Source of the DNA: Lachnospiraceae bacterium
GTDB taxonomy: Bacteria > Bacillota > Clostridia > Lachnospirales > Lachnospiraceae
DNA length: 64,000 bases
Assembly: GCA_017525525.1 (NCBI GenBank)
Contig: JAFXSQ010000070.1
Coordinates: 1-64,000 of the forward strand
Reading direction: 5' to 3'
Shown here: positions 34,505 through 40,968 of the stretch, piece by piece
Layout of the letters: the number at the start of each line of letters is the position of its first letter
Numbering within the stretch: the first letter of the stretch is position 1
Translations under genes and position numbers: made by a program
Notes under the pieces: model-generated
Databases searched by the model: none
Seen by the model: the letters and a program-made list of their open reading frames with translations, nothing else
Told to the model about the DNA's origin: nothing

Positions 34505-34560
34505 GGCTAAAATGATAGTTTGATAGTTTAAGAAAAATCAAGAAGGGAGAGGTGCTTGTT

Positions 34561-35469
34561 TTGGATAAAAAGAAAAGAATGACTGCCATTATCGTATTGA
34601 TAATTGCTGAGGCGGTCATTTCCATAGGAGTGTTCGTGACTAACGGCATGGTCGAAAAGCATGAGACCATAAAGGAGGTCATGAAGGATGCGGTTCTCCA
34701 CGAGGATAACAGGATAAGCCTGTTTGGCTTAGCGGAGGTTAATCCTTCGCTGATTTCAGGCTTCGTCGTGACGGCTTTGCTGCTTTTGTTCGCGGCGATT
34801 ATGCGAATCTTCGTGATACCGAAATTCTCGTATGTGCCGGGAAAGATGCAGATTCTGCTTGAAGAGTGGGTCGGCTTCTTCAAGAAGCTTGCGGAGACGA
34901 ACAGTCACCACAGAAACAAATTCCTCGGCGCATATATCTTCGCGGCGGGCTCGTACATCTTCTTCGGAACGATGTTTGAGCTGATAGGCCTTGAGGCGAT
35001 TACAACCGAGGGCCATCCGATTTCGCTGCCTGCGCCGTTGGCCGATATAAACGGCGCCATATGCATGGGCTGCCTTTCCTACCTGGTCATTTTATCCGGA
35101 GGAATAGCCGAGAACAAGCTTCGAGGCGTGGCGCTGACGTTAAAGGAGTTCTCGCTCCCGATATCCATGAGCTTCCGTCTCTTCGGTGCATTGCTCTCGG
35201 GTATGCTGGTTACGGAGCTCATCTACTTCTATATGGGGCTTTCGATAGTGCTTCCGGTTATAGTCGGGGTGCTTTTCACACTGATACATGCTTTGGTTCA
35301 GGCATACGTCCTGACCATGCTTGTGTCCATGTTCTACGGTGAGGTAACGGAGCCACCCAAAAAGAAGGAGAAAAAGAAGAAACCACATGATCAGGATCCG
35401 GAGAATACGCCGGAAGATACATCGGATGACAGTGATGTCGCAGAGGAAAGCAGCGAGCAGGCTGCATAA
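34561..35469 (+). CDS. atpB: F0F1 ATP synthase subunit a
   Basis: The membrane stator subunit that forms the ion half-channels. Five to six hydrophobic helices; the essential arginine is Arg206 in SFRLFGALLSG; the C-terminal HALVQAYVLTMLVSMFYGE block is conserved. Uncommon features are an N-terminal soluble stretch between helices 1 and 2 and a charged 40-residue C-terminal tail (KKKEKKKKPHDQDPE onward). I chose the TTG at 34561, 9-10 bases after GGGAG; an upstream GTG (34552) sits too close to it. It opens an a-c-b-(delta)alpha-gamma-beta-epsilon operon. Confidence 0.93.
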   Translation: MDKKKRMTAIIVLIIAEAVISIGVFVTNGMVEKHETIKEVMKDAVLHEDNRISLFGLAEVNPSLISGFVVTALLLLFAAIMRIFVIPKFSYVPGKMQILLEEWVGFFKKLAETNSHHRNKFLGAYIFAAGSYIFFGTMFELIGLEAITTEGHPISLPAPLADINGAICMGCLSYLVILSGGIAENKLRGVALTLKEFSLPISMSFRLFGALLSGMLVTELIYFYMGLSIVLPVIVGVLFTLIHALVQAYVLTMLVSMFYGEVTEPPKKKEKKKKPHDQDPENTPEDTSDDSDVAEESSEQAA

Positions 35470-35495
35470 AAAATATTATTCAGGAGAGTAAAAAA

Positions 35496-35921
35496 ATGAC
35501 AATTAAGATTTCAAAGAAATTACCCATAATACTCGGAGTTATCATCATACTGATGGGCTTGTTCGTGGTTGTCGGACCGCAGCTTATAAAGGCTGAGGGA
35601 AACGATGCATCGCTTACTGTAAATAACGGAATAAACACAGCTATAGCGCGAGATGCCGAGGATGTGGCGCTTGAAGCTTCCGCTGAAGCATCCGACTCAA
35701 CCGGCAGCAGAGCTATTGCGGCTGCGATAGCAATCGGACTAGCGGCTTTAGGCGGCGCCATAGCGATGGGTATGGCTATCTCAAAGGCAGCAGAGGGGAT
35801 GTCGAGACAACCTGAGGCAAGCGGTAAGATACAGGGTATGGTAATGCTTGGTCTTGTGTTTATAGAGACGGCTATTATCTATGCTCTTGTAACGGCGATA
35901 CTGATTATATTCGTAATGTAG
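35496..35921 (+). CDS. atpE: F0F1 ATP synthase subunit c with N-terminal extension
   Basis: The rotor ring subunit. The last 70 residues are the normal two-helix hairpin with loop RQPE (104-107) and the ion-binding Glu124 in FIETAIIY. Upstream lies an extra 70 residues: a hydrophobic segment (10-26), then QLIKAEG and an Asp/Ala/Ser-rich stretch. This resembles a cleavable signal peptide plus propeptide or a third helix; most c subunits are 70-90 residues in total, against 141 here. The Gln that Na+-binding c subunits carry in helix 1 is replaced by Met91, so H+ coupling is more likely (inference). It lies between atpB and atpF. Confidence 0.92.
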   Translation: MTIKISKKLPIILGVIIILMGLFVVVGPQLIKAEGNDASLTVNNGINTAIARDAEDVALEASAEASDSTGSRAIAAAIAIGLAALGGAIAMGMAISKAAEGMSRQPEASGKIQGMVMLGLVFIETAIIYALVTAILIIFVM

Positions 35922-35949
35922 CAGATTATATGAATAAGAGGTGCAGATT

Positions 35950-36453
35950 ATGGTACTTACCGGATTACCGCTTAATATAGACTTTCAGCAGATACTGCTT
36001 CACTTAGCGAACTTTGCTATACTCTTCTTCGGGCTTTACATCCTCTTGTACAAGCCGGTTGTAGACTTCATGAAGAAGCGTGAGGAGCATTACAAAGCCA
36101 TCGATGATGAGGCTATGGGGAAGCTTGCAGAGGCGGAGAATAAAGAAAAGGAATACAGTAACAGGTTAGAGACCTGTGACGCGGAGATAGCAGCCAAGAT
36201 GAAGAAGGCTGAGGATGAGATGAATGAGGCCAGACTTGCAAGCCAGAAGGCTGCAAAGGATAAGGCGGACAAGCTGATAGAGGAGGCTCGTGAGGCGGCT
36301 GAAGCCGAGAAGAAGGGCATCCTGAAGAGGGCCGAGAAGGAGATTACGGATATGGTTTCCGCAGCAGCCGAGAAGATTATGCTTTCGGATGACATAACAA
36401 AGGCCTATGATGAATTCCTCTCAGACGCCGAAAGGAGCGCAAAGCATGGATAA
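35950..36453 (+). CDS. atpF: F0F1 ATP synthase subunit b
   Basis: The peripheral stalk subunit. One N-terminal membrane helix ([13 protein letters not shown]) is followed by a long charged helix rich in Ala, Glu and Lys ending near [20 protein letters not shown] chose the ATG at 35950 (AAGAGG upstream) giving 167 residues; a GTG three codons earlier overlaps the ribosome site. The stop overlaps the start of the next gene by eight bases. The position normally taken by atpH (delta) is empty. Confidence 0.93.
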
Positions 36454-38191
36454 AAAGGCGTATCTCTATGCTGCGAAGGCCCCGGACGGCGCGCAGCAGA
36501 TTCGTTTTTTACGGTTTCTGAAAAATAAATACGGTGACGATATCGAGCTCTGCTTTGTAGAGGACTCATCTTTAAAGGGCGGCTTCAAGCTTACCTGCGG
36601 GGAGGATGTCTACAACTGGACGGCAGAGGGAAGGTTAAGACAGCTCAAGGACATGCTTGCCGACATGGAGAGCGGCAGGGGGCTTAAGGCCTCCGAATCC
36701 GGAGAGCTGCTTGCCCTTATCAAAAAGTCCATAGATGATTTTCACCTGAACACGGTTCCCGAGGAAGAGGGAAGAGTCAAGACCGTCGGAGACGGAATAG
36801 TCGTTGCAAGCGGCCTTGAATCCGTGACCTACGGCGAGATAGTCGTATTCGAATCCGGCGTAAAGGGCATGGTTCAGGATTTAAGAAAGGGCGAGATCGG
36901 TGTTATCCTTTTCGGTGACGATGAGGATATAACAGAGGGAAGCCTAGTAAGGCGCACGAAGAAAACCGCGGGTATTCCCGTCGGTGACGGTTACCTCGGA
37001 AGAGTTGTGGACGCCCTCGGCAATCCTTTGGACGGTCTCGGAGATATAGAGGACGACGGCTACAGGGCGGTCGAAGCTCCCGCGCCCGGCATCATAGAGA
37101 GGCAGCCTGTCAACGAGCCGATGGATACGGGACTCCTCTCGATAGACTCCATGTTCCCTATAGGAAGGGGCCAGAGAGAGCTTATTATCGGCGACAGACA
37201 GACGGGCAAAACGACTATTGCGATAGACACCATATTAAACCAGCAGGACAAGGGAGTGTTGTGCATATACGTGGCCATAGGTCAGAAGGCAAGCTCCGTT
37301 GCAAGGACGGTGGGAATCCTGAAGAAGAGGGATGCCATGAAGTACACGGTTGTGGTCAATGCTTCGGCTTCGGACCCGGCTCCCCTGCAGTACATAGCTC
37401 CCTATGCGGGAACTGCCATAGGCGAGTATTTTATGGCAAAGGGCAAGGACGTGCTCATCATATATGATGATCTTTCAAAGCATGCCATAGCCTACAGAGC
37501 GCTTTCGCTGCTGCTTGAGCGTTCGCCCGGACGTGAGGCTTACCCCGGAGATGTATTCTATTTGCATTCAAGATTGCTTGAGCGTTCGGCTCATCTTTCG
37601 GATGAATTGGGCGGCGGCTCGCTTACAGCGCTTCCGATAGTCGAAACCCAGGCGGGTGATGTGTCAGCTTACATTCCGACGAATATAATATCCATAACAG
37701 ATGGTCAGATATTCTTGGAAAGCGATCTTTTCTTCGCGGGCCAGCGTCCTGCGGTAAATGTCGGTCTTTCGGTATCCCGTGTGGGCGGCGCCGCGCAGAC
37801 GAAGGCCATGAAGAAGGCCTGCGGAAGCTTGAGGCTTGACCTTGCGCAGTACCGTGAGATGGAGGTATTTACACAGTTTTCAAGCGACTTGGACGAAGCT
37901 ACGAGAAAGCAGCTTGCCTACGGTCAGGGACTTATGAGGTTACTAAGACAGCATTCGAGCAGTCCGCTTTCGTTGTGCGAACAGGTTATTGTTCTTGTTT
38001 CGGCGACGGCGCACTGCTTTGCGGATGTTGAAATAGAGAAAATCCTTGATGTGAGAAATGAGCTTTTGGAGCATTTTCACCGCGAGGAGAGCGGTCTGTG
38101 CGCAACCATAGAGAATACCGGTATCCTGAGCGACACAGACAAGGAAAGAATTATAACGGTTGCTAAGGAGTTTATGAAGAATAAAGCATAA
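36446..38191 (+). CDS. atpA: F0F1 ATP synthase alpha subunit with fused delta C-terminal domain
   Basis: The catalytic-head alpha subunit: Walker A GDRQTGKT (249-256), [12 protein letters not shown], and [12 protein letters not shown] and [12 protein letters not shown] blocks. The first 75 residues are not alpha: they match the C-terminal domain of the delta/OSCP subunit ([20 protein letters not shown], then [26 protein letters not shown], i.e. the L-GG-x-V...GRL pattern). No other delta gene is present in the operon and the delta N-terminal helical domain is missing. Length 581 residues against about 500 normally. The ATG at 36446 follows AAAGGAGCGC and overlaps atpF by 8 bases. Confidence 0.93.
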
Positions 38192-38211
38192 CAGGGTTAA
38201 GGTGGTCTTAA

Positions 38212-40539
<2,328 letters not shown>

Positions 40540-40540
<1 letters not shown>

Positions 40541-40968
40541 TGGCAGCAGTTTTTAATGCTAAAATATACGAGGCGGACAGCGAGTTTTATAACGGCGAGG
40601 TAGTCTCCCTTGTGGTTCCGGCATCGGACGGAATGTACGGCATACTCGCACATCACAGAAATGTGGTTCTGAATATAGTTCCGGGACAGATGCACTTTGA
40701 GAAGCCGGACGGAACCGTGGTTAACGCGCTTATTTCCGAGGGCATGCTTAGGGTGAAAAACGGTGAAGCCCTGATACTCGCCACCTCCGTCATAAAGCCG
40801 GAGGATGAAGAGGCAAGGCGCAAAAAGGAACTCAAAGAGGAGCGGGAGGAAGCGCAAATCCAAAAGAAGAGCATGCAGGAGTACAAGGAGGCTGAGGTTA
40901 TGCTTGCAAAGGCGATACACGGCCTTAAGGTTAACCTACACAACCATGAGGATGGAAAACAGTTGTAG
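40540..40968 (+). CDS. atpC: F0F1 ATP synthase epsilon subunit
   Basis: It links the rotor and the head and can inhibit ATP hydrolysis. The N-terminal beta domain (VVSLVVPASDGMYGILAHH, then MRVKNGEALIL-like strand) is followed by a helical hairpin with a very charged EEARRKKELKEEREEAQ segment. Length is 142 residues. It closes the operon; the next gene begins 40 bases later without a visible terminator. Confidence 0.95.

Follow-up and report, generated by a model that had tools for sequence, protein, structure and literature searches.

The 64,000-nucleotide stretch of Lachnospiraceae bacterium DNA considered here (the window; contig G000:C28 of genome G000, which comprises 3.19 Mb in 75 contigs) contains an F-type ATP synthase operon in which the C-terminal domain of the delta subunit (deltaCTD) is joined in frame to the N-terminus of the alpha subunit, while the N-terminal domain of delta is absent from the operon. 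The same two features characterize the deltaDeltaN-alpha FoF1, an engineered enzyme with up to three peripheral stalks (see below). The operon encodes a complete second F-type ATP synthase of G000. Judged from its genes, this is probably, though with considerable reserve, a natural multi-stalk, H+-type enzyme that would work at low proton motive force (pmf) and has its stator clamp built into the head.

The Delta Domain at the Front of Alpha

The operon occupies positions 34552-40968 of the forward strand in the order a-c-b-alpha-gamma-beta-epsilon. The earlier note had read this order from the DNA with no gene between b and alpha, and both the open reading frames (ORFs) and a Pfam scan of the 8 proteins of the operon region confirm it. 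The frames of b and alpha overlap by 8 bases, there is one copy each of a and b, and all of the subunits match F-type families. A separate delta gene, as found in conventional operons, is lacking, and the scan of the 8 proteins gave no match to the remaining, N-terminal part of the OSCP profile.

Residues 4-71 of alpha correspond to positions 104-172 of the 172-position Pfam OSCP profile (23.5 bits, cut-off 22.3, E 6.7e-5), and a profile built from 40 separate deltas, with no fused ones among them, scores the fused alpha N-terminus at 24.2 bits. A profile of 55 fused N-termini found chain I of 9jc1 as its best match in PDB (E 3.5e-10), with profile positions 9-117 lying on residues 4-112 in an alignment that runs through the linker and the alpha helix. 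E. coli delta ranked behind 9jc1 in that search (E 3.1e-6), the lower rows of which include weak proteasome matches at E 0.0035 and above. The window stretch by itself also has 9jc1 as its first PDB match, albeit a weak one (E 0.014). The N-terminal helix of alpha appears from the alignments to be retained after a short linker. By these scores the match of the alpha N-terminus to the delta C-terminal domain is not a chance one, and the delta/OSCP domain which the earlier note had recognized at the start of alpha is upheld by the Pfam OSCP, separate-delta and PDB profile matches alike. The features of the operon are as follows.

34552..35469, + strand: atpB, subunit a, 305 amino acids (aa); Pfam ATP-synt_A, 59 bits
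35496..35921, + strand: atpE, subunit c, 141 aa, extended at its N-terminus; the Na+-ligand position has Met instead of Gln, and the carboxylate motif is ETA; Pfam ATP-synt_C, 55 bits
35941..36453, + strand: atpF, subunit b, 170 aa, without an OSCP match; Pfam ATP-synt_B, 52.7 bits
36334..36432, + strand: C-terminal segment of b, residues 132-164, presumed partner of the fused deltaCTD; b C-terminal profile, 47.3 bits (the window b is one row of that profile)
36431..36437, + strand: ribosome-binding site of the fused alpha, AAAGGAG, 8 bases before ATG 36446
36446..38191, + strand: whole fused alpha ORF, 581 aa
36446..36658, + strand: delta/OSCP C-terminal domain at the front of alpha, residues 1-71; Pfam PF00213 on residues 4-71; PDB hits of the family profile include 9jc1 and free deltas
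36659..36694, + strand: linker between deltaCTD and alpha, borders approximate, from alignments
36695..36739, + strand: retained N-terminal helix of alpha, 15 residues (helix inferred by alignment), which lines up with the conventional alpha start (MNLKPEEISSVIKEQI)
36740..38191, + strand: alpha core with barrel, nucleotide-binding (GDRQTGKT) and C-terminal domains; Pfam ATP-synt_ab_N, ATP-synt_ab and ATP-synt_ab_C; TIGR00962, 736.3 bits
38212..39144, + strand: atpG, gamma; Pfam ATP-synt, 288.6 bits
39137..40540, + strand: atpD, beta; Pfam ATP-synt_ab, 248.7 bits; GGAGVGKT
40540..40968, + strand: atpC, epsilon; Pfam ATP-synt_DE_N, 57.5 bits

Subunit a (34552-35469), whose Pfam score of 59 bits is modest, ends in a charged and probably disordered tail of about 45 residues.

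Proposed Mechanism and Comparison with Known Enzymes

The structure 9JC1 is that of an engineered Bacillus PS3 deltaDeltaN-alpha FoF1 (Ueno et al. 2025, PMC12229609). In that report, deletion of the N-terminal domain of delta and fusion of the remainder to alpha gave an enzyme with approximately two stalks on average by gel, and particles with zero, one, two and three stalks made up 15, 51, 26 and 8% in electron cryomicroscopy (cryo-EM). An a subunit accompanies every stalk, up to three, and the H+/ATP ratio is raised to 5.8 (PMC12229609). The engineered chain of 580 aa resembles the window alpha of 581 aa in that deltaCTD is joined to the alpha N-terminus and the N-terminal domain of delta is absent. 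The PS3 enzyme differs in that it was designed, had the C-terminal domain of epsilon removed and had its stalks measured, whereas the window enzyme is natural.

In the mechanism proposed for the window enzyme, each alpha would bear a deltaCTD on its N-terminus, the N-terminal domain of delta being gone, and each deltaCTD, packed against the N-terminal helix of its own alpha, would bind the C-termini of a b2 stalk. With the N-terminal domain of delta missing from its normal place on the threefold axis, one head could take as many as three b2 stalks, and each of these would have an a subunit to itself. Extra stalks would multiply the ion/ATP ratio, and a multiplied ratio would make ATP synthesis possible at low pmf. 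Since the construction is the same as that of the engineered three-stalk enzyme, nature may already possess multi-stalk machines. The earlier note had asked what three tethers would do to the symmetry of the stator, an apt question given that the engineered analogue reaches three stalks (PMC12229609).

Natural proteins with similar features, from Acidaminococcus fermentans and UniProt entries G4Q3K6 and A0A1I2C5T3, were noted in the same report, whose authors consider a multi-stalk structure highly likely in A. fermentans (PMC12229609). By their description these three share the domain layout of the window alpha. The Lachnospiraceae radiation, the full-delta intermediates and the tandem form described below do not figure in the available part of that account of the Acidaminococcus cases (PMC12229609).

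In the mycobacterial b-delta protein (PDB 7JG5), to which the window deltaCTD has a weak match (E 0.15), delta is likewise joined to another stator subunit, but the partner is b rather than alpha and the delta domain lies at the C-terminal end. There is one such fusion per enzyme; the window b, of 170 aa, matches ATP-synt_B only. V/A-type ATPases have two or three EG stalks on the head, and their stalk and a subunits are different. They share with the proposed enzyme the presence of several stalks, but all of the window subunits match F-type families. The N-type F-ATPase, too, is an additional F-type enzyme whose operon has no delta gene, and that operon begins with beta and epsilon, which come last in the window operon. 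N-type enzymes lack delta and have a longer b (PMC5706428), whereas the window operon possesses an OSCP domain.

Delta Genes Elsewhere in the Genome and in Related Genomes

The earlier note had held that there is no separate atpH and had named a free copy elsewhere in the genome as grounds for abandoning its proposal. This is correct for the window operon and incorrect for the genome, since a second F-type operon on contig 27 of G000 has the order a, c, b, full delta, alpha, gamma, beta, epsilon, with a full-length free delta at G000:C27:4844-5359 (142 bits). Such a copy thus exists, as the delta of a paralogous operon. It is not treated as defining because it belongs to another complete operon. 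G000 has two atpA genes (TIGR00962), and a PF01813 search found no V/A-type ATPase in it.

The profile of fused N-termini was run on 299 genomes of the family and had matches in 155. Matches within an unbroken frame of 576 aa or longer were taken as fusions, and at least 64 genomes have one. PF00213 was searched in 78 genomes (64 fused, 8 with a stop in the frame and 6 of the same genus). Among 70 genomes with an uninterrupted fusion, 21 have a full delta-alpha protein, in which the match reaches the N-terminal half within the fused frame. Another OSCP match is present in 46 of the 70, a full fusion only in 6 and a CTD-type match only in 18. Sixteen of these 18 CTD-only genomes (82-100% complete; G108 and G177 were left out) were tested for atpA, and in all 16 the deltaCTD-alpha fusion is both the sole atpA (E up to 1e-100) and the sole OSCP match (E up to 0.01), which argues that the enzyme does without the N-terminal domain of delta. 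The cell thus holds another delta in G000 and no other in these 16 relatives. A V/A-type ATPase occurs in 14 of the 16 and was not found in G149 (98% complete) or G182 (94%).

In none of 96 deltaCTD-alpha locus entries, which include the window, represent 86 distinct alphas and in 75 cases are 7 kb or longer, does an ORF of 60 or more aa beside the fusion match the N-terminal domain of delta; the profile recovers 21 of 31 full-fusion loci, so a strongly diverged piece could escape it. That b or a separate ORF might conceal the N-terminal domain was considered and rejected, there being, at the sensitivity just given, no match in the Pfam scan or in the ORFs of the locus entries. An upstream PF00213 extension in G102 was likewise rejected, as it runs through a stop, corresponds to the b gene in frame and scores 1.5 bits with the profile of the N-terminal domain. 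The proposal of the earlier note that the b-binding half of delta became covalently attached to alpha and the alpha-binding half dispensable gains support from the 16 genomes and from the recurrent loss seen in the tree.

Evolution of the Fusion

A tree of 164 alpha cores included 50 enzymes with a separate delta, 29 full fusions, 82 CTD fusions and 3 tandem forms; L002, L040, L150, L151 and L153 were left out of the trees as copies, identical cores, 5'-truncated ORFs or cores shorter than 430 aa. Fusions of the Lachnospiraceae type adjoin separate-delta enzymes without the Na+ motif. Sixty-seven CTD and tandem rows, including the window, form one branch with a support of 99 in the Shimodaira-Hasegawa-like approximate likelihood ratio test (SH-aLRT), and the other CTD rows lie among the full fusions. 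A more careful tree was built from 62 of the 164 rows, hand-picked once the first tree was known and excluding L171-L173; it requires the CTD label to change 8 times. A 50-row branch of that tree holds every fusion with a support of 100/94 and also includes the separate-delta row L184, for which gene fission, a second fusion or a long-branch error is possible.

The path read from these relatives is one from a free delta through a full delta-alpha fusion to deltaCTD-alpha. A single CTD clade is rejected by the approximately unbiased (AU) test on the 62-row tree (p 0.00016), and by this result the N-terminal domain of delta was lost more than once. Of the lost domain, locus L141 retains roughly 23 residues, VTQAITDHAQDLRNTGNSRDLLQ, which the C-terminal domain follows directly. 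The remnant resembles the start of its neighbor L131 (VTQAAMNYAQDLRNTEISKELLQ), a full fusion with which L141 pairs in the tree, and L141 is read as a deletion of the N-terminal domain caught half way. An independent marker is offered by subunit c, which is short and has Ile and EAT in all 29 full fusions and in 15 CTD rows. Met is present in c of 62 of the 80 CTD rows read, where the c ORFs are 105-190 aa long.

The CTD-alpha fusions L171, L172 and L173 come from other families of the phylum, show little likeness to the others and may be of independent origin. Their place in the tree is unsure because of long branches, and L171 and L172 carry the classical delta motif D-A-S-x-R-G-R. The fused deltaCTD at L038:3645-4019 (also in L145) has an insertion of about 16 residues in the hairpin region (VGTALYDEKSGEVLDWKLSEVYDW).

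Tandem Delta Domains and the b Subunit

Two deltaCTDs in tandem precede alpha in L122:5971-8004, L126:5971-8013 and L142:5956-8004, which form one branch with a support of 99. If all three alphas carry them, the tandem form has six deltaCTDs per head. The b subunits of these loci are 232-235 aa long from the conserved start, as compared with 155-188 aa for the other 109 distinct b ORFs, and in all three loci the extra length is a second copy of the b C-terminal segment. The second copies score 13.8 bits in L122, 13.5 in L126 and 12.0 in L142 with the segment profile, and in each of the three none of 2000 shuffles reaches the copy-to-copy score. Two segment matches above 8 bits occur only in L126 and L142 among 111 distinct b sequences (L122 had been filtered out and was tested apart); the b of L076 has an additional fragment match of 6 bits. 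Co-duplication of deltaCTD and its presumed partner segment in b argues that the fused domain holds b, and hence that it would still bind the b tail. No match spanning both copies in an uninterrupted fused frame was found in further genomes among 391 members of the class. The tandem profile also has a match at G1080:C59:100539-100979 (positions 6-156), in a frame of 353 aa.

Subunit c and the Coupling Ion

In Na+ rotors of the I. tartaricus type, Gln and Ser/Thr-Thr surround the carboxylate of c. In the window c, Met replaces the Gln and the carboxylate stretch reads ETAIIY, so that this ligand set is absent. The c of the free-delta operon in G000 reads GQG...ETTGLY. By the same motif, the ligand set is present in none of the 112 fused operons read, as compared with 27 of 49 conventional ones. 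The window enzyme would thus be of the H+ type, and the free-delta enzyme of the same genome would be the one with the Na+ ligand set.

The c ORFs of the large CTD-fusion lineage, at 105-190 aa, exceed the usual length of about 74 aa, examples being those of the window (35496-35921), L122, L126, L175 and L176. The extended form has a signal-peptide-like hydrophobic start and an acidic spacer ahead of the usual hairpin, and is absent from the full-fusion relatives. G000 carries rnfC, and PF00346, which served as a proxy for the large subunit of Ech, had no match in this genome. Rnf, mostly Ech, and an F-type ATP synthase have been reported for rumen butyrivibrios, and the accessible portion of that report does not mention the fusion (PMC4478896).

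Alternative Explanations

The main rival to a multi-stalk enzyme is one with a single stalk, in which one b2 and one a would occupy one of the three deltaCTDs and leave two empty, the fusion merely replacing the affinity lost with the N-terminal domain. This is a serious contender, if on balance an unlikely one. The single copies of a and b in the window operon agree with it, as do the full-delta fusions (29 of 164 tree rows), whose central domain should still allow no more than one stalk. In the engineered analogue, however, deletion of the N-terminal domain and fusion sufficed for an average of about two stalks by gel (PMC12229609), and repeated loss of that domain fits the removal of a limit on stalk number better than simple replacement. 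It is very improbable that a free delta from the conventional operon caps the fused head and makes the fused domain an accessory. A full free delta does exist in G000, 46 of the 70 fusion-bearing genomes have another OSCP match and the alpha N-terminal helix is retained, but all 16 tested genomes without another OSCP match have one atpA, and in the Bacillus enzyme the N-terminus of one alpha contacts the C-terminal part of delta (PMC12229609).

Mixed heads, in which an internal start or cleavage yields free alpha and only one of three alphas carries deltaCTD, would result in the usual 1:3 stoichiometry, and there are sites that might serve. ATG 36665 (Met74) of the window is a weak candidate, preceded at a distance of 13 bases by a Shine-Dalgarno-like match of 5 bases, and in some relatives a GTG or TTG codon at the junction comes with a 4- or 5-base match. 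Junction starts were examined in 81 of 105 fused ORFs, the other 24 having no anchor motif. Matches of at least 4 bases precede 3 of 40 junction ATGs, a rate below that in the body of alpha (205 of 943), as compared with 54 of 81 first starts, and the window candidate is absent from the nearest row, L034, which is 93% identical. Mixed heads are therefore extremely improbable. A conserved internal start at the delta/alpha junction was considered for the 81 ORFs and rejected, since the candidate sites are not conserved. The chance that the fusion is a misassembly or a functionless truncated remnant is negligible, and this explanation is already contradicted. Many of the source records are metagenome assemblies, but full fusions occur in Pseudobutyrivibrio xylanivorans MZ8 and Agathobacter ruminis JK623 and CTD fusions in Lachnospiraceae AC2029 and Acutalibacter sp. 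1XD8-36, whose record titles are not so marked. Moreover, the nucleotide-binding motif is invariant across 49 sequences and the fusion is the sole atpA in 16 genomes.

Several points weigh against a natural multi-stalk, low-pmf enzyme with a history of recurrent loss. Most cryo-EM particles of the engineered enzyme had no stalk (15%) or one (51%) (PMC12229609). Another OSCP match, which could in principle take part, is present in G000, where it is the free delta, and in 45 others of the 70 fusion-bearing genomes. The 29 tree rows with a full delta on alpha mean that the fusion can coexist with the N-terminal domain. When only strongly supported branches count, the CTD label need change just 2 times in the careful tree and 5 times in the quick one, the co-duplication with b is a single evolutionary event in one clade rather than three, and the assignment of the coupling ion depends on a sequence motif.

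Significance of the Natural Fusions

This kind of enzyme was already published in 2025, as an engineered construct with a short note on natural cases (PMC12229609). No other report of the fusion was found in the open-access literature searched by title and start of abstract, a scope beyond which most subscription papers lie. As far as these literature searches show, previous work has described neither how the fusion is spread through Lachnospiraceae and other Clostridia nor the full-delta intermediates, the repeated loss of the N-terminal domain or the tandem form and its co-duplicated b segment.

It is an evenly balanced possibility that F-type ATP synthases with several stalks and several a subunits have radiated widely in nature, in Lachnospiraceae and other Clostridia. 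Full delta-alpha fusions would have come first, and the N-terminal domain of delta, which breaks the symmetry, would then have been lost from them repeatedly. Such an enzyme would work at high H+/ATP and low pmf, alongside a single-stalk Na+ enzyme in certain genomes, and one sub-lineage would have doubled deltaCTD and the b C-terminal segment to strengthen the joints of its stalks. Each of the ATP synthases known to date contains a single a subunit (PMC12229609), so that the c-ring sets the ion/ATP ratio. The engineered enzyme broke this rule in 2025, and many natural enzymes, some of them in named strains, share its construction. The fusion is the only F-type alpha found in 16 genomes, in two of which no other rotary ATPase was found. 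The natural fusions make two questions open to direct test: whether natural enzymes employ more than one a subunit for ATP synthesis at low pmf, and what role the N-terminal domain of delta plays.
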